DNA of 22,201 nt from the IMG/VR virus record IMGVR_UViG_3300046820_000223, positions 1-22,201 of that record; one strand, written 5' to 3'. Both the position numbers and the translations under genes were made by a program. The notes beneath the pieces were generated by a model. The model did no database searches, was not told the DNA's origin, and saw nothing but the letters and a program-made list of their open reading frames with translations. Below, piece after piece: positions 2,849 through 20,372 of this stretch. Every line of letters starts with the position of its first letter. The first letter of the stretch is position 1. This DNA is from a virus.

Positions 2849-3388
2849 TCAACTATTCAACACTTTAGCACAAGAGTTCATTACTGCAGCAATACGACCA
2901 ATATCACGTAGTTGCTCAACAGTATAGCCTTCTTTCTTTAGTGTATCATAATGTGCCTTAACACAGAAGTGGCACTTACCAACGATACTCGCAGCAAGAG
3001 AATATGCCTCAAATCTGTCTTTGGTAGTTCCACCATGACTAGCGATAGCATTCATACGCAGTTGAGCAGGTAAACCAGCAAGAGCTGGGTCATCTGCCAT
3101 CTCAACATATGGATACCAAACATTATTCTGAGCCATAATACTTGCAGCTGTCATAGCAGCATCACGCTCTTTGACGTTGTCAATAGTATCAGTTTTAATA
3201 TTTAAATCTGTATTTGCCAGAAAGAAATTTAAAAGTTTACCATTACCTGTCGTCACCAAAGCAGCCAAAGCACATGCTTCTGCAACAACTGGATCTAGAG
3301 AACTGCGTTTCATCACAGCATCTAGATTCAGTTTAGTGTCTTTGGCGTAGTCAGGTAGAGATTCTTTAACCTGATCAATCCACTGCAT
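2849..3388 (-). CDS. ahpD: AhpD-like alkylhydroperoxidase (CxxC)
   Basis: 179 residues, all helical in character. The active-site motif KCHFCVKAH gives C139-x-x-C142 and H146, with E127 upstream in FEAYSLA. This E...CxxCxxxH pattern is the proton-relay and redox centre of AhpD. In the mycobacterial system AhpD accepts electrons from dihydrolipoamide carriers and passes them to AhpC. Length is close to M. tuberculosis AhpD (about 177 residues). Its ATG overlaps the stop of the peroxiredoxin gene by one base (TAATG), so the pair is translationally coupled. AhpD also has weak peroxidase activity of its own. Function is cytoplasmic peroxide detoxification. The call is strong for the family and strengthened by the adjacent partner. 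Confidence 0.9.
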   Translation of the reverse strand: MQWIDQVKESLPDYAKDTKLNLDAVMKRSSLDPVVAEACALAALVTTGNGKLLNFFLANTDLNIKTDTIDNVKERDAAMTAASIMAQNNVWYPYVEMADDPALAGLPAQLRMNAIASHGGTTKDRFEAYSLAASIVGKCHFCVKAHYDTLKKEGYTVEQLRDIGRIAAVMNSCAKVLNS

Positions 3389-3930
3389 TATAGAGTCTCC
3401 CCACCAACAGTACGATTACATGCACACAACTCACCAGTTTGAAGTGCATCAAGAATACGTAAAGTTTCTTCAGGTGAACGACCAACATTCAAGTTGTTAA
3501 CAGTGACATGTTGAATAACATTTTCTGGGTCGACGATAAATGTTGCACGCAAAGCTGCACCTGCTGGTTGATAGAACACACCAAGTTGTTCAATCAAAGA
3601 CTTGTCCCAGTCACGCTGAGTGTCAGCAAACTGAATATGTTTGATTTTCTGTAGATCACTATGTGCTTTTTGCCATGCCACTTTACAGAACTCATTGTCT
3701 GTAGAACCAGTCAATAAAACTGCGTCACGATCTTCGAAATCTTGGAACAACTTATCATACGCAACAATCTCTGTTGGGCATACGAATGTGAAATCCTTAG
3801 GGTAGTAGACAATAACTTTCCACTTACCTTCGAAAGATTTTTCTGTGATGTCAAAAAATGCAACTTCTGGTTGTCCAGGACGAACACCAGTTACCACGAA
3901 TGATTCTAATTTGTCTCCAACTGTTTTCAT
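3388..3930 (-). CDS. ahpC: AhpC-type peroxiredoxin with C-terminal CxC
   Basis: 180 residues with the thioredoxin-fold peroxiredoxin signature. FTFVCPTEI holds the peroxidatic C51, with the usual Pro and Thr. Near the C-terminus, ELCACNRT gives C169 and C171, the two-cysteine CxC arrangement of actinobacterial AhpC (C174/C176 in M. tuberculosis), which is the form that works with AhpD. It lacks the longer C-terminal arm of eukaryotic 2-Cys peroxiredoxins. It reduces H2O2, organic peroxides and peroxynitrite in the cytoplasm. The ATG has an AAGGAA site about 6 bases ahead and its own sigma70-type promoter at 3958-3986. It is followed directly by ahpD. Phage-borne peroxiredoxin with its reductase partner is uncommon. 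Confidence 0.93.
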   Translation of the reverse strand: MKTVGDKLESFVVTGVRPGQPEVAFFDITEKSFEGKWKVIVYYPKDFTFVCPTEIVAYDKLFQDFEDRDAVLLTGSTDNEFCKVAWQKAHSDLQKIKHIQFADTQRDWDKSLIEQLGVFYQPAGAALRATFIVDPENVIQHVTVNNLNVGRSPEETLRILDALQTGELCACNRTVGGETL

Positions 3931-7685: not shown

Positions 7686-7714
7686 ATTATACCCTATTAT
7701 TGAATATTTGTCAA
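7686..7714 (-). promoter_or_regulatory. Consensus sigma70 promoter for the 367-aa protein/RNase H operon
   Basis: The minus strand reads TTGACA (7714-7709), 17 bases, then TATAAT (7691-7686). Both boxes are perfect. The -35 lies inside the last codons of the alpha/beta hydrolase gene. The bases around the -10 match those of the promoter at 4962-4990. Confidence 0.9.
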
Positions 7715-8524
7715 GCAGTATTTCACCATCTCTGCACGGGTCCTGCAAGACTGATTTTCCCACATGGAGAAGTGGGTGGACTCTGGAATGATTACTTCTT
7801 GTAAGTCTGTAAAGACCTTTCTAAACTCAGCATAACCACCAGTTGTAGACTCGTAGTCGTATTCCCCTATGATTGATAGAATAGGAGGGATTCTATCAGG
7901 AGAAAACCCATGGTTCCTACGCATTACCCAGTAATTATTGATATCATAAACAACCTGAGCAGGAACTTTCCATTCAGATTTACCTATGGTAGATAAGATT
8001 CTCTCTTCCCATCCATCAATTCTATTTGGTTTTGGTATTAATTTGTCACTTATTTTAGCAAGTCGCTCAGTCTTTAATTTTTGAATATCAGTATTGAATT
8101 CAGCGTCATGGATAACAAACCACTTCCTATCATTTTTCAATGCTGGGCTGTGGATGATAACTTTATTGAAATAACTTTGAGATGCAATTAATGCTGGGGC
8201 AGTTGTAGTTGAGAATCCAAAAATTGTTTTAGATTCATATTGTTTGCTTATATTAGAAACTACACTGTGTATTTGATCAGCGTAGGTAACTCTATCGTAT
8301 GGATAAAAGTATTTACTATTACCATAACCAACAGGGTCAAATAAAACTACATCAATACCAGCTTCTAAAAAATATTGACTGTGTGTTTTACCATCTGGTA
8401 ATTGAAAATCCCAGAACGCACGTGGTGATAAAGATTGCCCAGGAAGTAAAAACAGTAGATGTTTGTTTTTCTCTGATGAGTAAATCTTTACGAAACATTC
8501 GCCTATATGTTGTTCTGTAACCAT
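7697..8524 (-). CDS. Alpha/beta hydrolase, 275 aa
   Basis: A full alpha/beta hydrolase layout is visible. An N-terminal strand and oxyanion region reads LLFLLPGQSLSP (23-34). The strand FDPVGYGNS (62-70) is typical of the strand-4 region. The nucleophile elbow GFSTT carries S105, an acid lies at D223 in IIGEYDY, and the catalytic H251 is in ESTHFSMW. Substrates may be esters, amides or thioesters and cannot be predicted. There is no signal peptide, so it is cytoplasmic. Its first 22 bases overlap the end of the aminotransferase gene, so it is translationally coupled to it. The second hydrolase of this three-gene island (9315-9935) is not a close copy. Confidence 0.82.
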   Translation of the reverse strand: MVTEQHIGECFVKIYSSEKNKHLLFLLPGQSLSPRAFWDFQLPDGKTHSQYFLEAGIDVVLFDPVGYGNSKYFYPYDRVTYADQIHSVVSNISKQYESKTIFGFSTTTAPALIASQSYFNKVIIHSPALKNDRKWFVIHDAEFNTDIQKLKTERLAKISDKLIPKPNRIDGWEERILSTIGKSEWKVPAQVVYDINNYWVMRRNHGFSPDRIPPILSIIGEYDYESTTGGYAEFRKVFTDLQEVIIPESTHFSMWENQSCRTRAEMVKYCLTNIQ

Positions 8525-9318
8525 GTTAATAGTTCATTTTCATTAAAGTATTTACCCTCAAAACATTTAACTTTAATTACATTACCAGCAGTAGATGTTA
8601 AGAACATAGCATCACACGTGTCCATATCATCAATTGATATCGCCGACCAATTAAATTTAATGTTATTTTTATCGCAAAGATTAGCAACCATACCCATGAC
8701 TGTTCCATCTAGCCTGTTATGTTTTGGCGCATAAACTTGATTGTTTTTAATTATCGCTACGTTAAATCCTGGACCTTCAGTTAAAAATCCACGATAATCT
8801 AATAGAACGGCAGTATCATATCCGCGATCAATAGCTTCCCACTGAGCCATGCTTAAATCATTCCACGAAAAGTTCTTCATAGTTTGATCTATTGCAGTAT
8901 TTCTACGTTGTTTAGATAAACACACCGTAGCTGCATTTTCTACATTAAATCCATAGTAGGGTTTAACATACGCAAAAACATTGGTTGCACAGTTGACTAG
9001 ATCTCTTGGGTTGCCAGAAATTGGAACACCTCTGGTGACACCTACCCAGAGTAACAATTCGGTTTTGGGTGCTTGTGCGATTAGTGTTTGAAACACAATG
9101 TCTAGATCATCGAGCCTTGGTAACGGTAAACGCCAACCCTCACAACTACGTGCGAATCTATCCATATGTGCCTGATAGTTTTCAATCTCTCCATTGATGT
9201 CGACTTTCATAACATCATAGGTAGCATCACAATGAATTAAACCAAGATCAAGAACTGATACAGTTAAATCTTGTATCTTACAATATCTACCATTTTTCCA
9301 TGCTGGGTAATTATTCAT
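8503..9318 (-). CDS. Class IV PLP aminotransferase / lyase (IlvE, D-amino-acid aminotransferase or PabC type)
   Basis: 271 residues, close to the family's usual 270-310. The PLP lysine is K148 in DQTMKNFSWNDLS, matching the family's K-x(3)-YLxN motif in diverged form. The downstream signature GYDTAVLLDYRGFLTEG (167-182) has E181, the Glu that contacts the pyridine nitrogen, followed by the N of FNVAIIKNNQVYAP. RLDGTVMGM replaces the common LPGITR. An internal VTRGVP also fits. It lacks features that would separate branched-chain aminotransferase, D-alanine aminotransferase and aminodeoxychorismate lyase. It overlaps both neighbouring alpha/beta hydrolases (4 and 22 bases), so the three products probably act in one short pathway. 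This is an auxiliary metabolic gene. Confidence 0.85.
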   Translation of the reverse strand: MNNYPAWKNGRYCKIQDLTVSVLDLGLIHCDATYDVMKVDINGEIENYQAHMDRFARSCEGWRLPLPRLDDLDIVFQTLIAQAPKTELLLWVGVTRGVPISGNPRDLVNCATNVFAYVKPYYGFNVENAATVCLSKQRRNTAIDQTMKNFSWNDLSMAQWEAIDRGYDTAVLLDYRGFLTEGPGFNVAIIKNNQVYAPKHNRLDGTVMGMVANLCDKNNIKFNWSAISIDDMDTCDAMFLTSTAGNVIKVKCFEGKYFNENELLTWLQNNI

Positions 9319-9935
9319 TTTATAAAATCCGATATAGCTTTAGCAGCTGTAAATCTAGCTGGTTCTAACATAATATAATGTGAAGAGTTTGGTATAACAA
9401 CTTCAACTTTATTACGCACCGCTCTGAAACATTTACCATTATCTAACATAAGACTGTTTTTAGTTTTTCCATATTCAGAAAACAAAAATAATGTTTTTTG
9501 CTTTAATGGTTTGACTAAAGAAAAATCAAGTGTAGAACTAACTGCATGATTTTTATTTGCTATGTCAGCGTCAAAGAATTTATTAGCAGTATCAATGTCT
9601 TCTATGTATTTTTGCTGAGAGTGATCAACTATTGATTGTGGATCTAAAAGAATAACTCCCTTGGTGTTTTGACGTGTAAGAGCTAAGAAACATCCTAAAC
9701 TATAACCCATTACATAATCAACATCTATGTCAAGACATGCATTATATACATCTATAAAAGTTTCGTCTTTTTCATAATCAATAGCATATGTCTCAATACC
9801 ATGAGAATTTAATAAAGACTCAAAGTTATCTTCTAAAAATACAGAGCCGAACATGGTTTCATATTTCCATGTGGCTCCCATAAAATATAGAAGACTGGCT
9901 CTGGAATTATTCGGCTTTTTGTGGTGTATTCGCAC
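9315..9935 (-). CDS. Alpha/beta hydrolase-like protein, 206 aa
   Basis: I prefer the GTG at 9935 because the first core strand (ASLLYFMGATW) would be lost with the ATG at 9881. An AGAAG site lies ahead of the GTG. The nucleophile elbow is MGYSLGC with S79, and a histidine is in NSSHYIML (H186). The acidic residue may be E154 in LFSEYGK or another nearby carboxylate. At 206 residues it is a compact serine hydrolase lacking a large cap, of the size of esterase/YqiA-like or thioesterase-like proteins. It overlaps dsbA by 29 bases and the aminotransferase by ATGA. It acts in the cytoplasm on an unknown substrate, presumably with its two neighbours. Confidence 0.72.
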   Translation of the reverse strand: MRIHHKKPNNSRASLLYFMGATWKYETMFGSVFLEDNFESLLNSHGIETYAIDYEKDETFIDVYNACLDIDVDYVMGYSLGCFLALTRQNTKGVILLDPQSIVDHSQQKYIEDIDTANKFFDADIANKNHAVSSTLDFSLVKPLKQKTLFLFSEYGKTKNSLMLDNGKCFRAVRNKVEVVIPNSSHYIMLEPARFTAAKAISDFIK

Positions 9936-11049: not shown

Positions 11050-11199
11050 TTATTCTTTAACTTTTGTTAATTTAGCACGTGATTCAGAATACTCAGCGTC
11101 AATCATCATACGCTTGTATGAGTTTCTAAACTCGCTCGGCATAGAAGCAAGAACACGCTTGGTGCTCTTACTCAATCTAAAATTCTTATCAGTTTTCAT
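11050..11199 (-). CDS. Tiny basic conserved phage protein, 49 aa
   Basis: An ATG at 11199 gives 49 residues to a TAA at 11050. The product begins MKTDKNFRLSKSTKRVLASM and includes FRNSYKRMMIDAE. The KNFRLSK-TK opening and YKRMMI-A segment match a small family I recall from T4-like marine phages. It is helical and basic with no TM. Its start overlaps the end of the phosphatase gene by 11 bases, and it lies 11 bases before the next tiny gene, so it is part of the same operon. Confidence 0.65.
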   Translation of the reverse strand: MKTDKNFRLSKSTKRVLASMPSEFRNSYKRMMIDAEYSESRAKLTKVKE

Positions 11200-11608
11200 A
11201 GGTAAATCCAAGTTCTTTCATTAGTTTATGTTTAACACGGAGATTCGGCTGACGATACCTTTCGGTGGCAGTAAATCCCATCATAGTAGCTACTTCAACA
11301 ACAGCACCACTACGGCAAATTCCAGCATGACAGTGCACAATTACATTCATACTATTTGCCAGAGCTTTATTTAGTAGTTGCACAATTTGAGTTGCTTGTT
11401 CGTCGCTAATCATAGCTTCTTCTGGGAAACTATCACCATCTTCTGCATCAAGAAACTCAAAACAGTGAACTTCTTTGTAAGTTCTTTTCGTTGGACAGAA
11501 CTCAGTAGCAGGATCTTGAATGCGAATCAGCATGACATTCTCTCCAAGGTCACTATGATGACCAAGGTGAATATCACTCATACTTACATTTTCAATCCAA
11601 CGAATCAT
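11189..11608 (-). CDS. Dual-specificity/tyrosine phosphatase-like protein
   Basis: 139 residues from the ATG at 11608; a TTG codon just before it is not needed because GGAG sits 8 bases ahead of the ATG. The cysteine-phosphatase P-loop VHCHAGICRSGA places the nucleophile C93 and R99 in the C-x5-R-S motif. Acidic residues in FLDAEDGDSFP (52-62) may supply the general acid. The protein is small for the family (about 140-170 residues) and has no membrane part, so it acts in the cytoplasm on phosphoproteins, phospholipid headgroups or nucleotides. Related phosphatase-like genes occur in cyanophages. It overlaps the MazG-like gene by 17 bases. Confidence 0.82.
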   Translation of the reverse strand: MIRWIENVSMSDIHLGHHSDLGENVMLIRIQDPATEFCPTKRTYKEVHCFEFLDAEDGDSFPEEAMISDEQATQIVQLLNKALANSMNVIVHCHAGICRSGAVVEVATMMGFTATERYRQPNLRVKHKLMKELGFTYEN

Positions 11609-11867
11609 CAATACTACTCCAAGTTTTTAATTTAATTTTCTTTGCACCAGCTGCAAGAGAAACAATACCCCAATCAATCAAACCACGTTCTGACATCATT
11701 TGTAACATACACATCAGATCGCCGATTTCTTCTTCAAGTCTTTGTTTATTTGTTCGTTCATTGTGGACAGCATCCATACCAAAACGGAACACCTTACTAA
11801 TTGCTTGCGTAACTTCTGCACATTCTTCTTGTGCGATCAACATAATCTCACGTTCACTACTATTCAT
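11592..11867 (-). CDS. MazG-like nucleotide pyrophosphohydrolase
   Basis: 91 residues. The all-alpha NTP pyrophosphatase motif is visible as EECAE (E14, E15, E18) in helix 1 and EEEIGD (E46, E47, D50) in a later helix, the usual EExxE...ExxD Mg2+ site. Length fits single-domain MazG-like or dUTPase-like proteins. Likely substrates are non-canonical NTPs or (p)ppGpp-related nucleotides; phage MazG is often thought to alter host starvation signalling or clean the dNTP pool. Its ATG at 11867 overlaps the upstream stop by one base (TAATG), and it overlaps the phosphatase gene downstream. Confidence 0.85.
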   Translation of the reverse strand: MNSSEREIMLIAQEECAEVTQAISKVFRFGMDAVHNERTNKQRLEEEIGDLMCMLQMMSERGLIDWGIVSLAAGAKKIKLKTWSSIDDSLD

Positions 11868-12313: not shown

Positions 12314-14317
12314 TTATTTACTTGTAGCTCGGTAAGTTCCGTCCCAGTTGGCTGGTTTACCCTCACGCATACGATCTGCCATGTTTTCATAATATTCTGC
12401 AAGTTCTGGTGTTGCAACTTTAAGTTGATCTATCATCTCAAGACATTTATCCCAGTTACCAACAGTATAATTAGACATCCAGTAATCATGCATACTGTTT
12501 TTGTTTGCAATTGTGTAAATGTTAACACCCTGAGTTTTACCTTTTACTGCAATGCAATCAAGTTTAACTACAGAGTATTCATCACTCACTTGTTTTGCTG
12601 TGAGTTCGCCCAACACAATACGAACTCCATAAGGTTTCGACTGACCCTCAAGCCTACTTGCGAGATTAACCCCATCGCCAAGACAAGTATAGTCAAAACG
12701 CTGCTCGCTGCCCATATTACCAACGACAACAGTAGCGGTGTTAATACCAAGACCCATACCGAAAGCAGGAATACCCTCAGCTTCAATCTCTTTATTAAAT
12801 TCATCTAACGACTCCAACATTTGTAATGCAGTTTTAACTGCCATCTTTGCATGGTTAGGTTCATCGACTGGAGCATTCCAAAATGCCATCTGCGCATCGC
12901 CGATATACTTATCAAGTGTTCCGTTATTCTCAATAATCTTTCTTGTCATCGCTGTCATGTAGCGATTCATAATTTTAGTTAACCCTTGGACATCTTTTCC
13001 ATAGTGTTCTGAAATTGTCGTAAACCCTCGAACATCGGTGAACATGATAGAAAGTTCTCGGGACTCCCCTCCAAGTTGAAGTAACTCAGGTTGTCGTTGT
13101 AACTTTTCAACCAAAGCTGGTGAAAGGTAAGTTCCGAATTGTTTTTTGATTTGCAACTTTTGGCGCAGTTCGACAAGGAATTTGACGATGTATCCGTGAA
13201 AGCTGCAGACAAGAATGGTAAGAATCGGGAATACAGCATCAAGTAGATAAGCTGATCGAACAAAGAGTTGGAAACCACCCCAATAGGTGAAGAATCCCAA
13301 AGCGATTGCGAATACGTATCCATGTTTATACCTTGTTAAGTAGATTGAAAGAATCACTGCCACAACCATAAACAAAATTTCTGCTGGCATTGCCCAGAAT
13401 GGACGAGATATATTTGTACCAGATACTACTGTTTCTAAAACTGCTGCCTGTAGGTAATGAGGATATACTGAACCCACTGCTGATGCGACAGGATTGTTAA
13501 GACCTTTTGCGGTGAGTCCAACGATGACAATACCTCCATCAAATGATTTTGGTAATTTTGCTGCGGAATGCTCGATAGGTTTTGACGACCAATCAACCCA
13601 TACTCTGCCGAGCTTGTCTGTTGCGATTTTTCCAAATTTAGGAATACGTACGGCTTCGATTCCTGTTTCGTTAACCTTAACTTGAAAGGAAGGGTCTCCT
13701 GATGCAACACGCAAGGATTCAAGAGAGATTGATGGATAAAGATTTCCGTTGGCTTGCACCACCATTGGTACTCGTCTTGTGACGCCATCAATTTCTGGGA
13801 GAGTGTTAACGATACCAATACCAGCAGCACTGTTATTGAATTCCTTAATGTTCGGTTCAATAATTCCATAATTTACACCTGCGTTATCTCCACCTATTAC
13901 TGATACACCTGGACGGAATGGTGGATATGTGTTTTTAATGTTATCAGTAGTTGCGGTATGTGGAAGAACTACTGGAACTTCCTTCATCAAATTACTTAAC
14001 TGAACATCTTGACCAAAACGATCACGCTCAGGCATATAGATGTTAAAGACAACCAACCCAGCACCAGCATTATACAGATCAGCAATGAGTTGGGCATATT
14101 GTCCACGAGGGAACGGGAACTGTCCTTTTTCTCGAATATAGGCATCGTCAATATTAACTACGTGAACCTGTTGGCTAACAGTAGTTCCTTTACTTGTTAT
14201 TAGTTGATCAAAATAACGAAGTCTGACAGATTCAACAAAAGATGGATCTGCCATTCTCAATAAAAGTAAAATCACTAGAGTTACTAGTGCTGTCCATGGA
14301 CTAAGAAGTTTTTTCAT
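12314..14317 (-). CDS. CHASE2-domain class III adenylate cyclase, membrane bound
   Basis: 667 residues. Order: TM helix (8-22); extracytoplasmic CHASE2 sensor (about 25-305, with VVNIDDAYIREKGQFPFPRG typical of the domain); three TM helices (about 312-328, 332-348, 358-378); a helical linker; then the cyclase domain (about 420-605). All catalytic residues are visible: metal Asp D428 in MFTDVRGF, K470 and metal D474 in LDKYIGDA, D542 for adenine recognition in RFDYTCLGD, and N551/R555 in GVNLASRLEG. This points to ATP to cAMP, not GTP. The last 60 residues form a helical tail. CHASE2 cyclases are common in bacteria, often near FecR proteins, but a phage copy is striking. It overlaps the small soluble gene by ATGA and ends the operon at the hairpin. 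The host would see a cAMP rise if it is active. Confidence 0.9.
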   Translation of the reverse strand: MKKLLSPWTALVTLVILLLLRMADPSFVESVRLRYFDQLITSKGTTVSQQVHVVNIDDAYIREKGQFPFPRGQYAQLIADLYNAGAGLVVFNIYMPERDRFGQDVQLSNLMKEVPVVLPHTATTDNIKNTYPPFRPGVSVIGGDNAGVNYGIIEPNIKEFNNSAAGIGIVNTLPEIDGVTRRVPMVVQANGNLYPSISLESLRVASGDPSFQVKVNETGIEAVRIPKFGKIATDKLGRVWVDWSSKPIEHSAAKLPKSFDGGIVIVGLTAKGLNNPVASAVGSVYPHYLQAAVLETVVSGTNISRPFWAMPAEILFMVVAVILSIYLTRYKHGYVFAIALGFFTYWGGFQLFVRSAYLLDAVFPILTILVCSFHGYIVKFLVELRQKLQIKKQFGTYLSPALVEKLQRQPELLQLGGESRELSIMFTDVRGFTTISEHYGKDVQGLTKIMNRYMTAMTRKIIENNGTLDKYIGDAQMAFWNAPVDEPNHAKMAVKTALQMLESLDEFNKEIEAEGIPAFGMGLGINTATVVVGNMGSEQRFDYTCLGDGVNLASRLEGQSKPYGVRIVLGELTAKQVSDEYSVVKLDCIAVKGKTQGVNIYTIANKNSMHDYWMSNYTVGNWDKCLEMIDQLKVATPELAEYYENMADRMREGKPANWDGTYRATSK

Positions 14318-14553
14318 ACAACTTTTGCTAGTATCTGAGCCATTTGAACTATGTATCTACATGCTATTTCATCGTTAGCCAATTCTTGTTGAGCTCTAAC
14401 ATCTGCAATCTCACTAACTAAAAATTGATATTCTTCATCAGTTAATTCTCCAATAGATCTTTTATCAGTTAGAACTAATAATTCGTTGGCTAACTGTGCA
14501 GCTGATCCACCAAGACCAGCCTGCTCTCTTAAACTTTCTAGATATTCGTTCAT
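14314..14553 (-). CDS. Small conserved phage protein, 79 aa
   Basis: I start at the ATG at 14553, which overlaps the lipoprotein stop as ATGA and has GAGAGG a few bases ahead; an ATG four codons earlier is possible. The product MNEYLESLREQAGLGGSAAQ with ELLVLTDKRSIGELTDEEYQ and an IADVRAQQELANDE helix is wholly helical and acidic, with no signal or TM. I recall closely similar proteins in marine T4-like phages, with no assigned role. It sits between a lipoprotein and the cyclase, so it may be a cytoplasmic partner of that module. Confidence 0.7.
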   Translation of the reverse strand: MNEYLESLREQAGLGGSAAQLANELLVLTDKRSIGELTDEEYQFLVSEIADVRAQQELANDEIACRYIVQMAQILAKVV

Positions 14554-14891
14554 CTTCCTCTCCATGCATCAGCGATTACATTAATACGAGTCTTGTTGAT
14601 TTTAATAACAGATTCGCAAAATGATTTGTTGTTAGAATTTTTAGCTTTAACTACTGCTTCTTGTAGCTTACCTATCGCATCAGCCTGTGGGTCTTTACGT
14701 AGAGAAGCGTATACTTTTAATCTTTCAATTTTATATTCAGCATCTGCCCAATTCTTATCATCACAATTTAATTTATCAACTGCGATCTTAACTTCAACTA
14801 GATTGTTGAACATTGCTGAGTCATGTGGTCGTGGTAAAATAAAAGAACAACCACTAAGTGTTACGAATAAAAGTGCTGCGATAATTTTCAT
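14550..14891 (-). CDS. Lipoprotein, 113 aa
   Basis: An AGGTAA site precedes the ATG at 14891. The signal sequence MKIIAALLFVTLSGCS ends in a lipobox L-S-G-C15, so the mature protein is lipidated and anchored in an envelope membrane. Residue +2 is Ser, which favours transport to the outer membrane. The rest is helical with two cysteines (C43 and C92) that could form a disulfide. It could be an outer-membrane spanin-like lysis protein, or an accessory to the curli pore; the sequence does not decide. It directly follows the FecR gene. Confidence 0.8.
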   Translation of the reverse strand: MKIIAALLFVTLSGCSFILPRPHDSAMFNNLVEVKIAVDKLNCDDKNWADAEYKIERLKVYASLRKDPQADAIGKLQEAVVKAKNSNNKSFCESVIKINKTRINVIADAWRGR

Positions 14892-14896
14892 ATTAC

Positions 14897-15988
14897 CTAC
14901 TTTTGTATTATGTTAATGGTAGTACTACCACCTTTGTTTACCTGTTGATAAACTGCAGAACCATCTTGTGAAATGTTTATGGTTTTATCAGATTCTTTAT
15001 CAATTATTATTTGTGCTACATGACTACTTATTCGATATAAAACTAGCTTATCATTTTCGTCAATACCATATTTCAAGCCAGAAGATTCATTATACCCTGG
15101 AAGCATTGTCTTTTGTTCTAACATAGATTCTTGACTGGCAGCTAACGCTCTATTACTTTCGTCAAGTAAATTAGTCAACAGTTCTACATCAAGAAAATTT
15201 ATATCAAGAGAATTAAACTTTAGATTATCTTCATCTAGTTTAGAATACTTCAATAAGTCTACATCAAGAAAATTAACATCCAACGCAGTTTTAGATTCTT
15301 GCTTGTAATCTTCTTGTATTTCTTTCGGCGGTGAAATAATCAACATATTATTTATGTTCGCCTGATCTATTGAAACTATAATTGGTTTCGATGGTGCTGC
15401 ATTTCTATCTGATACGAATGTTGTTTGATATGCAACATCCATAAACACAGTACCAACATCAGTAGACACTTCAATGGCACCTGTTACGCATGTTTTATTG
15501 TCGCATGAAGGAAGAAGCATAATTAACGAACGACCTAATTCGTCAACTGTCATAGAGAAGTCTGTCCCTCTAACTGCGACTGTTGCAGTTGGTGTTTGAA
15601 CATTTACATTTTGTGGATTTGATTTTGCTATCTGGCCACTGGCATATCTTGCAGTTCCCAGAACAACTTTCATGGCGAGTTTACCAGAACCTTTATTCGG
15701 ATCATACACGAAGTCATCTATCACGAGTTTTGATTGCTCTGTGATATTGACTGTCGTGTTGTCCTCGAATGTTAGTTTGGCTTTAGCCTTAGCCGTTACG
15801 ACTGTGTCGTTCATCTCTACTGGAGTATTGATTTTACTCTCTAGAGATTTCTTATTTCTAACAATTTCTGTAGGTCCAGTTTGCTCAGAAACTTTACCTA
15901 CGGCAGCATAATTAGTTTGACTGGTTAATAGTAATATTGTTAAGATTACCAGTTGAGTTAACTGTAACGCTCTGAGGTAATGTGCCAC
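14897..15988 (-). CDS. Secreted FecR-domain protein with curlin-like C-terminus
   Basis: I prefer the GTG at 15988 (GGAG nine bases ahead) giving 363 residues; a second GTG at 16018 has no such site. A signal peptide (LTQLVILTILLLTSQTNYA) is followed by a FecR domain with its hallmark VQTPTATVAVRGTDF (130-144). A middle section duplicates a FLDVDLL/FLDVELL unit about 25 residues apart. The last 35 residues (TINISQDGSAVYQQ and TTINIIQK) have the I-x-I-x-Q pattern of curlin repeats. The FecR domain here is periplasmic and is not an iron regulator by itself. The protein may link curlin export to the CHASE2 sensor. It overlaps the curlin gene by 77 bases. Confidence 0.82.
   Translation of the reverse strand: MAHYLRALQLTQLVILTILLLTSQTNYAAVGKVSEQTGPTEIVRNKKSLESKINTPVEMNDTVVTAKAKAKLTFEDNTTVNITEQSKLVIDDFVYDPNKGSGKLAMKVVLGTARYASGQIAKSNPQNVNVQTPTATVAVRGTDFSMTVDELGRSLIMLLPSCDNKTCVTGAIEVSTDVGTVFMDVAYQTTFVSDRNAAPSKPIIVSIDQANINNMLIISPPKEIQEDYKQESKTALDVNFLDVDLLKYSKLDEDNLKFNSLDINFLDVELLTNLLDESNRALAASQESMLEQKTMLPGYNESSGLKYGIDENDKLVLYRISSHVAQIIIDKESDKTINISQDGSAVYQQVNKGGSTTINIIQK
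15183..15274. repeat. Short direct repeat inside the FecR gene
   Basis: A 17-base sequence at 15183-15199 recurs exactly at 15258-15274, 75 bases (25 codons) apart. It encodes the two copies of the NFLDVDLL/NFLDVELL unit. The repeat looks like a small internal duplication in a linker between the FecR domain and the curlin-like tail. Confidence 0.7.
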
Positions 15989-16535
15989 TTTGTGTAACTC
16001 CAATAGTATTCGTATCACCAGTAGCTGTTATAATTGCACTTGTCACTCCAGTATTAGTTGAAGTGTGAGTGATGTTATTTGTACTACCAGTAACATTAAT
16101 TTCACTATAATGATTTGCGCCAGCACCTAAGTTCTGTGTTATAGTGTTATTATCACCAACCACGACTTGTTTAATTGTAGAACCAGAACATCCAGCAGAT
16201 GTAGTGGTACCACAGTTAATGGTTTGAATATTACCGCTACCAGTTGTATCAACAATAACGCTGGCAGATGCACCATTAACAACCAATGACAATTCATTGT
16301 TGCTTCCTATTTGATCGATAGTAACTGTGTTAGAGCCACCACCGATGAAGGCAGAACTTAGAGAACTACCAATAGTATTTCCACTACCATCTTGAGTAAT
16401 AGAAATAGTTGAAGAATCTCCAACCTGTTCGATATAGATGTCATTAGCATAAACAAAGGATGAAGCTGTCACGCATAACAAAGCAGTGAGTACTTTTCTC
16501 GACAACCCACAAACGCCTGTCTTACTTGTTTTCAT
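15912..16535 (-). CDS. Curlin-repeat amyloid subunit (CsgA/CsgB-like)
   Basis: Using the ATG at 16535 the protein has 207 residues; upstream codons in the frame lie within CsgG. A signal peptide ends VLTALLCVTASSFVYA. The mature part has repeated curlin-type strands: ISITQDGSGNTIG, VTIDQIGSNNELSL, IKQVVVGDNNTITQN, TIGVTQSG and ITINQSN, with the Q-x-G-x-N turns of amyloid curlins. Spacing is less regular than in E. coli CsgA (22-residue repeats), and two cysteines lie in the middle (NCGTTTSAGCSG), which is unusual. It should be exported through CsgG and assemble as fibre or coat. It overlaps csgG by 14 bases and the FecR gene by 77 bases. Confidence 0.88.
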   Translation of the reverse strand: MKTSKTGVCGLSRKVLTALLCVTASSFVYANDIYIEQVGDSSTISITQDGSGNTIGSSLSSAFIGGGSNTVTIDQIGSNNELSLVVNGASASVIVDTTGSGNIQTINCGTTTSAGCSGSTIKQVVVGDNNTITQNLGAGANHYSEINVTGSTNNITHTSTNTGVTSAIITATGDTNTIGVTQSGTLPQSVTVNSTGNLNNITINQSN

Positions 16536-17331
16536 CTTCTTTGATTTCCTTGTTTGGTTTTGGTTTGAATTTCCAAATACCTTTCTTTTCTCCTTCAATA
16601 ATCATTTCATATACAGCCTGTTCTATTGCAACACGAACAGCGTAAGTAGTTGGTTCATTTAGAGCTGTCCCACTTTCAAGTTCTAAAGACTTAGTGCCTT
16701 GATCAACAAATTTGAACACACCTACTGTATGAGCAGTACTATAAATTGTTTTTGATACTGCCGTACTTAACAAAATCTCTCCGCTACTCACACTTACCAA
16801 GCGTAAAGATATAACAACTTCATCGACACGATATTGCTCACTGCCACCGATACCTAAAAATCTGGCACCATTACCACCAGATCTGATGTTACTATCGTAA
16901 CCAATAATACCACCTTCAACCATAACACCAGCAACAGTTAGTGGCTTGAGTGGTTTGGCTTCTTTTCCTTCATATACTTCTCTTTGGTTTCTAATTAACT
17001 GTCGTTCTTTAACTAAGTTATCAAGACCAACACGTTCAACTACCTTAAACCAATTCTTACTATCTTGTAGTGATTTAATTAAAAATGTTTCACCACCCTG
17101 TGTAACTGCTGATGAGAATAATGCCAACTTATCGTTTGGTTTCTTTTGTCCAGTTTTATCAGCGAATCCATAAACAGCGATAGCTATTTTCGGACCATCA
17201 AGTTCTGGTAGTTTCTCAATGACACTCTCACGTGGTGTTAATTTAACTGGTTCTTCTTGTGAGAAGTTCATACGCAGATTCGCGCAACCAGTTAAAACTA
17301 ACATCGACAATGATAAAACAATTAACTTCAT
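16522..17331 (-). CDS. csgG: CsgG curli secretion channel lipoprotein
   Basis: 269 residues (E. coli CsgG is 277). The lipobox is LTGC16. Family landmarks are strong: IAVYGFADKTGQ-KP (50-64), SAVTQGG, VERVGLDNLVKERQLIRNQ (98-116), and VAGVMVEGGIIGYDSNIRSGG followed by GARFLGIGGSEQYRVD. The long beta hairpins that form the 36-strand outer-membrane pore and the gating constriction region are present by alignment with E. coli. A GEILLSTAVSKTI segment also matches. It should form a nonameric pore in the outer membrane for unfolded curlin. CsgG genes have been noted in marine T4-like phages. Its ATG overlaps the stop of the upstream gene (TAATG). Confidence 0.95.
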   Translation of the reverse strand: MKLIVLSLSMLVLTGCANLRMNFSQEEPVKLTPRESVIEKLPELDGPKIAIAVYGFADKTGQKKPNDKLALFSSAVTQGGETFLIKSLQDSKNWFKVVERVGLDNLVKERQLIRNQREVYEGKEAKPLKPLTVAGVMVEGGIIGYDSNIRSGGNGARFLGIGGSEQYRVDEVVISLRLVSVSSGEILLSTAVSKTIYSTAHTVGVFKFVDQGTKSLELESGTALNEPTTYAVRVAIEQAVYEMIIEGEKKGIWKFKPKPNKEIKEDENK

Positions 17332-19346
17332 TAGAATTTAACTTTTACATTTAATCCAAGAGTGTTGCTTGTTGTTGAATTTAACCAGTTCTTACCAGCA
17401 TAAACATAATATGTGGTATCACCATCTACTTTAGATAAAATTAAGTTTGCTTCAGTTATTCCGTTTGATGTTTTAGCAACTTCAGTTAAAACTTTTCCAC
17501 CCAATACATCTGTTGAATATTGAACACCATATTCTCCGATAGTTTGAGTATTTGAGTTTCCGATAATAGTTTGAGCTGACTGAATGCTACCAGCTTCAAC
17601 CTTAGTTGGAGTTGAGTTCTTTAAAATAGTGGCACCAACGAATGGTCTAAAGCCATAAACTTCTGGAGAAAGAACCTTAGTACTCAACCATGTTGATTGT
17701 GATGCGTTAGAATAACTGTTTGAGAATGGACCGATAGTTCTGCTATAATTATTTTTAATATTAGCATGACCAACATCATTCTGAATAGTAATTCCTTCGT
17801 CTGAATTATAATCAGCGAAAGCACCGAAGTGATAACCATCTAGACCAGCACCAGTAGTATCAACACCAGTTAGCTTACCATTGATTTTGTTAATCTGACC
17901 ACCAACAATCAAAGTTTTATCAATGTCAGTTTCGTATGAAAGACCAACGATAGAAGTGTTTGCAGAATAACCATTCTGCCCTTTGAACTTGGTACCAGTA
18001 ACATTAATGGCAACTCTACCTTTATCATCAGCAACACCATTTCTAGCATTTTGACGATTTAAGTTTCTGTATAAACCAGTCTTGATTATATCAAACTGGT
18101 CAGCCTGATCAGCACGACCAGAGAAACTATCATTGGCGACGCTAGTATCAACTACGTTAAACAATTCAGTAGTAGTTGTAGTTGAACCACGTGTAGTAGT
18201 TGTAGTAGAATCACTATAAGATGTTGTTGTGATAGGAGTAGTTGCTGTTGTTCTAATCCATGGTGTTGTTACATTAGTGGTAGTTGTTCTAGCGATAGTC
18301 TGAAGACCAGAAGATTTACTAGCTTCATGGTGAGCAAGAGAACCAGTAATAACTGGTAATGAAGAATCAACTACAGTTGATACTAATACTTCATTAGTAA
18401 CTGATGTACCAGTGATAGTTGGAGTTGCTGGCGCAGAAGCAGCCGATGTTGCTGAGCCGATATCTGTTAAAGTCCCACTGAAAGAACTTGTTCCTGCTGT
18501 ACCACCACCTGCACCACCATCAATGGCAGTAGAAGCAGAAGCAAATGCAGATGGTCCGAAGATATAAGCGTAACGGTAAGTTACGATATCACCAATTGCC
18601 AAACTGCTTGATAAGAAAGAAATACCGATTGTGTAGTCGCCACGAACTACATCATGACCGCTCGTATTATCGTAGTAGTCTTGTGGATTGCTTGACCAAA
18701 ATGGACTGATACTAGTATTTGAACCAGTAGCCTGAGTTGTGTATAAACCAAGAGCATATCTTGAAGTTAATGCTTCAGAGAATACCACATTCTGTCTCGG
18801 AATAACACCATAACCACGCACGTTGTCAGTAGAAGAACTGTCTCCTGTTGCTGCACGAGCATCTGGATCAATGAAACGAGCAAAGTATAATTGATCCATC
18901 GCAATCTTAGCTTCTATTCTTGTTGCGATGTCAAGGTATTGTTTACCAGAACCTAATGCGTAGGTATGTTGTAAATCAAAATTAGAATGATTAACTGCCC
19001 ATACAGCACTTGAAGACGTTGGAGTTCCAACCCAAGCACCACCTGGCACTTGAGTAACATATGCGTTGTTATTGTGATAGTTAGTGGCGACACCACCATT
19101 GACGATACGAACTGCCCATCCCTCAAATGGAGACCCAGGAGTTAGATAATCGTAAGCTGTATTGAATGTTCCAGTTCCTGTTGAATCGTATAACAATCCA
19201 GGAGAAGTATTACCACCAGAACCTAAAGTTCCTGTAGTGGCATTAACACCAGCTTTAACGTATTCGTTAACTAGAATTACGTTTTGCGCATGTGCCGAAA
19301 CAAACGCACTTGCGATTGCCAGAGAGATTAGGGTTTTCTTAAACAT
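17331..19346 (-). CDS. Autotransporter-like outer-membrane protein, 671 aa
   Basis: A signal peptide (MFKKTLISLAIASAFVSAHA) leads a passenger of about 20-340 rich in Ser, Thr, Gly and Asn, then a Thr-rich low-complexity linker (350-395), an amphipathic helix (QADQFDIIKTGLYRNLN), and a beta-rich domain to the C-terminal residue F (LGLNVKVKF). This terminal F with alternating residues is the outer-membrane assembly signal. The plan matches type V autotransporters: passenger plus about 12-strand barrel. I find no protease or adhesin motif. It lies between csgF and csgG, so the phage would insert it in the host outer membrane at the same time as the pore. AAAGGA sits before the ATG at 19346. The fold call is likely and the role is open. 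Confidence 0.75.
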   Translation of the reverse strand: MFKKTLISLAIASAFVSAHAQNVILVNEYVKAGVNATTGTLGSGGNTSPGLLYDSTGTGTFNTAYDYLTPGSPFEGWAVRIVNGGVATNYHNNNAYVTQVPGGAWVGTPTSSSAVWAVNHSNFDLQHTYALGSGKQYLDIATRIEAKIAMDQLYFARFIDPDARAATGDSSSTDNVRGYGVIPRQNVVFSEALTSRYALGLYTTQATGSNTSISPFWSSNPQDYYDNTSGHDVVRGDYTIGISFLSSSLAIGDIVTYRYAYIFGPSAFASASTAIDGGAGGGTAGTSSFSGTLTDIGSATSAASAPATPTITGTSVTNEVLVSTVVDSSLPVITGSLAHHEASKSSGLQTIARTTTTNVTTPWIRTTATTPITTTSYSDSTTTTTRGSTTTTTELFNVVDTSVANDSFSGRADQADQFDIIKTGLYRNLNRQNARNGVADDKGRVAINVTGTKFKGQNGYSANTSIVGLSYETDIDKTLIVGGQINKINGKLTGVDTTGAGLDGYHFGAFADYNSDEGITIQNDVGHANIKNNYSRTIGPFSNSYSNASQSTWLSTKVLSPEVYGFRPFVGATILKNSTPTKVEAGSIQSAQTIIGNSNTQTIGEYGVQYSTDVLGGKVLTEVAKTSNGITEANLILSKVDGDTTYYVYAGKNWLNSTTSNTLGLNVKVKF

Positions 19347-19355
19347 ATTATTCCT

Positions 19356-19805
19356 TTAGAATGAAAAACTTGCTATCGGCACAGTGATATCAGTTCTATT
19401 ACCATTCGATTCAATAATAGTGAGAGTCACATCTGTGCCAGTTTTCACCCAAGAAATATTAGTTCCCTGAAAATCCATTGTTCCTGACGTCGCACCTGCA
19501 TCTGCAAACATTGCGTCTGCTAACTGCTTTGATAGTTGTGCGTAAATGCGAGATTCTACGTTAACCAAAAATTTTGCTAAGTTTGTATTCTTAGCGTCAC
19601 GTTCAGCTTTATCAGCTGTAGCCTTAGCTTCGTCTTTTAGTTTTTGTTTTCGCTGTGTTTCTAACTGTTCAATAGTTAGAACATGTGATGAATAACCAAC
19701 CCCACTAAAAGCAGGGGAGTTAAATTGGTGCACGAGTTCTGCAGCATAGATATTACTTGCTATCAGACTCGCTAATATGAGACTTCTTTTTAGAAATGTC
19801 ATCAT
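19356..19805 (-). CDS. csgF: CsgF-like curli assembly factor
   Basis: I start at the ATG at 19805 (149 residues; the next codon is also ATG); earlier codons fall in the preceding gene. A signal peptide ends ASLIASNIYA. The mature start ELVHQFNSPAFSGVGYSSH matches the CsgF pore-binding N-terminus (FxNPxFGG in E. coli), which plugs into CsgG. A charged helix follows (EQLETQRKQKLKDEAKATAD), then a beta-rich end with LTIIESNGNRTDITVP like the E. coli C-terminus. E. coli CsgF is 138 residues. It overlaps the upstream one-TM gene by 53 bases. In bacteria CsgF links the pore to nucleation at the cell surface. Combined with csgG and a curlin gene nearby, the identification is firm. Confidence 0.87.
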   Translation of the reverse strand: MMTFLKRSLILASLIASNIYAAELVHQFNSPAFSGVGYSSHVLTIEQLETQRKQKLKDEAKATADKAERDAKNTNLAKFLVNVESRIYAQLSKQLADAMFADAGATSGTMDFQGTNISWVKTGTDVTLTIIESNGNRTDITVPIASFSF

Positions 19806-20040
19806 TTTCTTTTTCGTTGCGTAACGACAAAATGACATTCACTTTCTGGTTCAAACGGATAAGGTCGTTATCCAACATTCTAATTCGATCAATAAGATCG
19901 ACCAGAACTTTACTAGCTTCACTTGTTACTGGTTTAATTTCAGTAGTTACCCACTGCCAAACATAGTAAATGAAGTATCCCAATCCAAACGCTGCTACTA
20001 TTGGGAAACCGAATTTGTTAATTAGTCCTACTATGTCCAT
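19753..20040 (-). CDS. One-TM coiled-coil membrane protein (paralog of 20097-20372)
   Basis: The ATG at 20040 is two codons inside a GTG at 20046 and has AAGAG about 7 bases ahead. The 95-residue product has an N-terminal TM helix (GFPIVAAFGLGYFIYYVW) and then a heptad-like helix (DRIRMLDNDLIRLNQKVNVIL) ending in a charged tail. The next gene upstream has the same plan and shared residues, so the two form a tandem paralogous pair. The size is that of a phage holin or spanin partner, but there is no proof. It leads into csgF with a 53-base overlap. Confidence 0.7.
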   Translation of the reverse strand: MDIVGLINKFGFPIVAAFGLGYFIYYVWQWVTTEIKPVTSEASKVLVDLIDRIRMLDNDLIRLNQKVNVILSLRNEKENDDISKKKSHISESDSK

Positions 20041-20104
20041 ATCCACACTCTTTACATGGTTGATTTTTAGGAGTCAAAGCTCCACAATGTTTACATTCAG
20101 TCAC
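20018..20104 (-). CDS. Putative CxxC/CxxC zinc-ribbon micro-protein, 28 aa
   Basis: A GTG at 20104 opens 28 codons to TAA at 20018. The product is MTECKHCGALTPKNQPCKEC then GYGHSRTN: two CxxC knuckles 9 residues apart, the layout of a minimal zinc ribbon. Its start overlaps the previous gene's stop by 8 bases and its end overlaps the next ATG, so it would fill the gap between the two membrane genes. No good Shine-Dalgarno site is seen. The spacing and overlap are what this genome does elsewhere, but the short length keeps the call tentative. Confidence 0.45.
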   Translation of the reverse strand: MTECKHCGALTPKNQPCKECGYGHSRTN

Positions 20105-20372
20105 GTCGTGCATCAGACTGCTCCGCTCTTGCTATTCTATCTAAATCTGGGGGTATGCCTAAGGCATGGCTAACTTTGGTGTCGATTCTAATTACATCAT
20201 GGTTCATGGCAGCTACACGCTTATCAAGAGCCATAATGATTCCCTGCATAGACTTAACAGATGATGTTACACCAGCTAAGATAAACTTTAGGGTAAGAAA
20301 TACGAAATATCCGCCAGCGATCGCTGCGGCAATTGGAAAGCCAACTTCGGCTACAATCTTGAAAAATTCCAT
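20097..20372 (-). CDS. One-TM coiled-coil membrane protein (paralog of 19753-20040)
   Basis: 91 residues from the ATG at 20372. TM helix: GFPIAAAIAGGYFVFLTLKF (11-30). A helical tail follows with DKRVAAMNHDVIRIDTKVSHAL, in which D-R-x3-N-x-D-IR-x3-KV-x3-L is shared with the downstream protein (D-R-x3-D-N-D-LIR-x3-KV). The GFPI-AA...GYF opening is also shared. It may oligomerise in the inner membrane and could be part of a holin-like, sensor or scaffold complex. It is the first gene after a possible promoter at 20392-20412. Confidence 0.72.
   Translation of the reverse strand: MEFFKIVAEVGFPIAAAIAGGYFVFLTLKFILAGVTSSVKSMQGIIMALDKRVAAMNHDVIRIDTKVSHALGIPPDLDRIARAEQSDARRD

Follow-up and report, generated by a model that had tools for sequence, protein, structure and literature searches.

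A putative CHASE2 adenylate cyclase closes the curli operon of a T4-like phage and may act as the output of an envelope-sensing relay

The stretch of viral DNA analyzed in this work (22,201 nt, further called the window) carries on its minus strand a cluster of genes in which curli secretion functions are combined with a putative signalling module (Table 1). In the direction of transcription a 2OG oxygenase-like gene is followed by genes for two one-TM proteins, CsgF, a 671-aa barrel-like protein, CsgG, curlin, FecR, a lipoprotein, a small ORF and finally the cyclase. From CsgG to the cyclase the adjacent genes overlap or lie only a few bases apart. The presence of CsgF, CsgG, curlin, FecR and cyclase in this order identifies the cluster as a phage T8SS-FecR-AC module. 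The promoter scan gave no excess and none of the RNA families and tRNAs searched for was detected.

Table 1 Coordinates of the features of the curli-FecR-cyclase cluster in the window
Feature	Position (nt)	Strand	Basis
Pair of ~90-aa one-TM proteins, phrog_18771	19753..20372	-	Precede the module in most phages
CsgF	19356..19838	-	Pfam E 5.1e-15
Exported 671-aa protein, probable C-terminal beta-barrel, accessory	17331..19346	-	Signal peptide and sequence; few loci
CsgG outer-membrane secretion pore	16522..17331	-	Pfam E 1.7e-55
Curlin-repeat protein (CsgA/B-like), start codon uncertain	15912..16598	-	Pfam Curlin_rpt E 6e-07
Periplasmic FecR-domain protein, 373 aa	14897..16018	-	Pfam FecR E 8.2e-12; model resembles PupR signalling domain 6ovk
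Putative curlin-like FecR tail, residues 345-373, Q351 and Q372 21 apart	14900..14986	-	Motif, profile, model
Predicted small lipoprotein, 113 aa, LSGC motif	14550..14891	-	Sequence
Small ORF, 83 aa, 4-base overlap with cyclase start	14314..14565	-	Homologues in few loci
Predicted CHASE2 adenylate cyclase, 667 aa	12314..14317	-	ORF, Pfam, conservation, model, structure match
CHASE2 sensor domain, residues 13-324	13346..14281	-	Pfam E 3.4e-36 and model
Class III cyclase catalytic domain, residues 420-603, D428/K470/D474/T544/N551/R555	12509..13060	-	Pfam Guanylate_cyc E 1.3e-20, conservation, Foldseek

The order hol2-hol1-CsgF-CsgG-curlin-FecR-cyclase is common to most of the related phage loci and to phages HTVC008M and Melnitz. 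When phage loci with sufficient room were anchored on FecR, CsgG was found upstream in 70/70 and the cyclase downstream in 66/66, figures which are not population estimates since the locus sets were picked by similarity and are partly redundant, some contigs being present in both. Two loci (L035 and L059) encode the cyclase without a curli gene within the stretch available. Other members of the cluster are less widespread. The barrel-like protein (17331-19346), inserted between CsgF and CsgG in few phages only, has no match in Pfam or PHROG, and homologues of the 83-aa ORF adjoin the cyclase in only a small number of loci, among them L008, L056, L074, L076 and L079. Histidine kinases have been placed at about the position of the one-TM pair (Wittmers et al. 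2022, PMC9599517); the ~90-aa proteins encoded at 19753-20372 are far too short for kinases.

Three further groups of genes in the window deserve mention. An AhpC-like peroxiredoxin gene overlaps a carboxymuconolactone-decarboxylase/AhpD-like gene (2849-3930), an antioxidant pair unusual for a phage. A class IV aminotransferase is encoded between two alpha/beta-hydrolase-like genes (7697-9935), perhaps as a small metabolic cassette, and a dual-specificity-phosphatase-like protein is encoded downstream of the cyclase (11189-11611).

No structural genes were found in the 22,201 nt of the window. Among ten long viral contigs with the cyclase gene six encode the T4-type capsid protein Gp23, and the window shares with the long cyclase-bearing contigs a T4-type exonuclease and dCMP deaminase; the assignment of the cyclase carrier to T4-like phages is thus supported. 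Relatives of the window cyclase occur on no fewer than 593 viral contigs. The phage-type curli-FecR-cyclase module was also seen, complete or in part, on six contigs labeled as bacterial (L084, L089, L090, L092, L108 and L128). These are probably misbinned phage contigs and were treated as phage contigs in bacterial assemblies; the T4 capsid was found in the assemblies of L108 and L084.

The earlier note on this DNA had read the region as a complete membrane-bound cyclase with a sensor facing the envelope, and this reading has been confirmed. The ORF has exactly the coordinates proposed and lies on the minus strand, with ATG at 14317 and the stop at 12314; it encodes both Pfam domains, the Guanylate_cyc domain scoring 74.2 bits against the curated cut-off of 21.9, while PHROG 35576 matches the whole protein. 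In the AlphaFold2 model (built with 39 homologues, mean pLDDT 88) the first transmembrane helix (TM1, residues 7-23) is followed by a periplasmic alpha/beta domain (26-300) and by TM2-4, which run out into a signalling helix (309-394); the cyclase fold comes next, and further helices make up the C-terminus. The periplasmic CHASE2 domain is hence flanked by an N-terminal TM and C-terminal TM helices, which is the layout of CHASE2 receptors. A Foldseek search placed the catalytic part close to the solved structures of CyaC (1wc3) and CyaB (3r5g), with target TM scores of 0.88-0.90. By sequence and model, the predicted product is an intact membrane-bound, envelope-facing enzyme.

The catalytic domain has the metal-binding Asp pair (D428/D474) and the transition-state residues (N551/R555) of class III cyclases. 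In an alignment of 83 proteins, that of the window and its homologues from 82 phage sequences, no substitution of D428, K470, D474 or R555 occurs, and N551 is retained by 80 of them; replacement of this Asn by Ala is on record for a natural cyclase (PMC4215837). Position 544 is occupied by T in 79, D in three and S in one. The list of catalytic residues given in the earlier note stood for these five and failed for D542, proposed as the adenine residue: the alignment with the solved CyaC and CyaB puts T544, seven residues before N551, at the base-recognizing position occupied by their Thr. With K470 and T544 as the base-recognizing pair, the cyclase looks like a class IIIb (K/T) adenylate cyclase by residue pattern. 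Adenylate cyclases keep the Lys and guanylate cyclases have Glu instead, as described in the work on Ma1120 (PMC4215837), and because the Lys is retained in all 83 sequences, cAMP is the likely product.

We regard it as very improbable that the product is cGMP or some cyclic pyrimidine, or that the enzyme feeds or disturbs signalling of the Pycsar type. Thr at the second base position occurs in some adenylate and also in some guanylate cyclases (PMC4215837), and the PycC profiles of PADLOC hit the catalytic domain with E values down to 3e-25, but the invariant K470 speaks against this proposal, as does the presence of the adenylate cyclases CyaC and CyaB among the closest solved structures, and no Pycsar effector gene was recognized adjoining the cyclase. 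The PycC matches probably reflect only the cyclase fold shared through common class III ancestry, and they give no indication of the connection to cyclic-nucleotide defence drawn in the earlier note.

Between closely related sequences the cyclase domain had dN/dS values of mostly 0.02-0.14 (highest 0.18), usually below those of CHASE2, which is likewise under purifying selection. The low values for the cyclase domain indicate that the gene is not decaying. Some published marine curli phages have no cyclase (PMC9599517), as might be expected of a passenger gene or an inactive relic travelling with the curli module; such an origin is nevertheless hardly credible, as the cyclase is intact in all complete homologues, its catalytic residues are conserved and dN/dS is low.

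Comparison of close relatives disclosed mosaic cyclase genes. In the sister phage L079 the flanking genes are mostly 86-99% identical to those of the window, and its cyclase gene (L079:9347-11359) encodes a CHASE2 domain ~92% identical to that encoded at 12314-14317 of the window but a cyclase domain only 55% identical, which makes this pair the strongest outlier among all pairs. The L079 cyclase domain, with D/S at positions 544/551, is 90-98% identical to that of L034. A second pair, L041 and L048, combines nearly identical CHASE2 domains (dS 0.025) with saturated divergence in the cyclase domain (dS 2.4). To judge from these sequences, recombination that kept the sensor and replaced the output is the likely explanation of both mosaics; a chimeric assembly is less likely for L079 because L034 independently has the same domain type. 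Such an exchange of the cyclase domain under a kept sensor in sister phages was not found in the literature on phage T8SS clusters.

The conserved active site, the purifying selection and the replaceability of the cyclase domain would also suit a plain host-manipulation enzyme, largely independent of FecR, that raises cAMP and thereby shifts the metabolism of the host or its expression of receptors. We consider this unlikely, given that the CHASE2 domain is itself under purifying selection and that the linkage to FecR is near universal in the sample.

The phage FecR is modelled as a signal peptide, a signalling domain of the FecR/PupR type, a poorly ordered linker and short strands at the C-terminus; the fold of the signalling domain is recognized both by Pfam (FecR) and by the match to 6ovk (E 6.7e-05). 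FecR anti-sigma regulators have a cytoplasmic anti-sigma domain and a sigma-factor partner; the phage protein begins with a signal peptide instead, and no sigma factor was seen among the window genes scanned. The last 30 residues contain hydrophobic-x-hydrophobic-x-Q motifs, with Q-Q spacing of exactly 21 in 54/54 and a final Q invariant in 55 phage sequences, and are modelled as regular short strands. A first, loose version of the tail motif was uninformative (46% vs 25% in shuffles) and was replaced by a stricter one, fixed after a first set had been viewed and then applied to new loci. The strict motif occurred in 61/62 new phage FecRs, in 12% of shuffles and in 0/29 bacterial FecR neighbours; since the new FecRs are homologues of the first set, the result demonstrates conservation more than independent origin. 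Comparison of the tail with the phage curlin profile gave P 5e-4 (reversed control 0.06) with an hhalign probability of only 32%, and Pfam Curlin_rpt had no match in the FecR tails at E up to 10. Taken as sequence evidence, these data are suggestive of a curlin-like tail. The combination of a PupR/FecR-like domain with a conserved curlin-like tail was not found in the literature on phage T8SS clusters.

The cyclases of the phages group together in a single clade (100 SH-aLRT) adjoining alphaproteobacterial CHASE2 cyclases in a tree based on a quick search and containing several long bacterial branches; this placement agrees with that of Wittmers et al. (PMC9599517). Pairing of FecR with a CHASE2 cyclase is an older bacterial device. 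In bacteria without curli (Nitrospirota and others) FecR is encoded 7-65 bp upstream of the CHASE2 cyclase and is joined to TPR or other parts, and in a Rhizobium the gene for a FecR-TPR protein of 1221 aa runs into the start of the cyclase gene. Such pairs relay outer-membrane signals to cAMP in Campylobacterota (PMC9239204), where FecR and TPR genes are found in clusters with those of CHASE2 cyclases, and in the NsrA/CyaD/CyaK system of S. meliloti (PMC7529298, PMC13001267). The S. meliloti CHASE2 cyclases require the outer-membrane receptor NsrA (PMC7529298), and plasmid-made CyaD1 without CHASE2 gives constitutive cAMP (PMC5498481), which argues that this type of pathway is real and that CHASE2 acts as a restraint. 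Since the bacterial FecR partners carry other input parts, the phage FecR would be the coupler and its tail would name what is sensed, presumably curlin or curlin export.

It is quite conceivable, though we incline against it, that an active cyclase serves a CHASE2-FecR pair which responds to another cue at the envelope, be it a ligand, stress or a second phage adsorbing to the cell, and that curli are the regulated output and not the signal. The occurrence of bacterial FecR-CHASE2 pairs without curli points in this direction, and so do the S. meliloti CHASE2 cyclases, which perceive a protein from outside by way of a receptor in the outer membrane. Against it stand the curlin-like character of the FecR tail, conserved only in the phage set, and the failure to identify an operon regulator.

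The explanation we prefer, to which we assign slightly less than an even chance, is that the cyclase is a working class IIIb enzyme forming the output end of an envelope-sensing relay in the phage curli operon. During infection curlin and the CsgG/CsgF pore of the phage would be produced by the cell. FecR, once exported, would couple to CHASE2 through its FecR domain and touch curlin subunits or the pore with its curlin-like tail, and in this way curli export or assembly would be reported to CHASE2, which would gate the cytoplasmic cyclase dimer. The cAMP might then act through a receptor of the host, proposed because no gene for a CRP-like receptor was found in ten long phage relatives. We infer the enzyme activity, the FecR-CHASE2 contact, the sensing of curlin and the host response. 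As to the reprogramming of host cAMP-CRP control considered in the earlier note, CRP-like sites in the window show no excess and are fewer than expected by chance. Feedback on curli, one of the roles suggested in the earlier note, receives indirect support from the FecR linkage and the curlin-like tail. A more specific version is less likely than not: FecR would be a curli sensor, and interaction of its tail with curlin or the CsgG pore would switch the CHASE2 cyclase. Amyloid export would in this way be coupled to the cAMP of the host, and phages would adjust the output by trading cyclase domains.

Phages that come with curli machinery and a cAMP signal of their own are widespread, as judged from the number of viral contigs encoding a cyclase relative. 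The FecR tail and the domain order make the module a testable relay from the outer membrane to a second messenger, and it may help to explain the role of the bacterial FecR-CHASE2 pairs.

The presence of a cyclase in a phage curli operon is not new, having been published in 2022 (PMC9599517), and is annotated in HTVC008M and Melnitz. Wittmers et al. reported both FecR and adenylate cyclase from type VIII secretion clusters of phages and ascribed to them a possible role in regulation. Their pelagiphage cluster contains CsgF, CsgG, curlin, FecR and adenylate cyclase in the same conserved order, with an origin near alphaproteobacteria; the window represents another phage and differs in that a barrel protein of 671 aa separates CsgF from CsgG and two small ORFs precede the cyclase, and CHASE2 is absent from the main text of that paper. 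A homologous CHASE2 cyclase ends the same operon in Pelagibacter phage HTVC008M (AGE60353.1) and Methylophilales phage Melnitz (QZI94833.1), but these proteins are only 36-38% identical to that of the window, and the Melnitz enzyme has D/S at positions 544/551 instead of T/N. The curli pore of Melnitz has been discussed in a paper whose main text does not mention the cyclase (Buchholz et al. 2022, PMC9004378). No experimental study of an adenylate cyclase encoded by a phage came up when open-licence papers were searched by phrase. CyaC of Spirulina and CyaB of Pseudomonas, both class IIIb, share the catalytic fold and the K/T base-recognition pair with the window cyclase but have different sensor domains, neither being a membrane CHASE2 protein. 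In the bacterial pairs (Nitrospirota, Campylobacterota; PMC9239204) FecR likewise adjoins a CHASE2 class III cyclase, whereas curli genes are absent and FecR is linked to TPR or other domains instead of a curlin-like tail. The CyaD1/CyaD2/CyaK system of Sinorhizobium meliloti is bacterial, signals to Clr and operates without curli, yet, like the relay proposed here, it relies on CHASE2 cyclases, driven in its case by the outer-membrane signal receptor NsrA.
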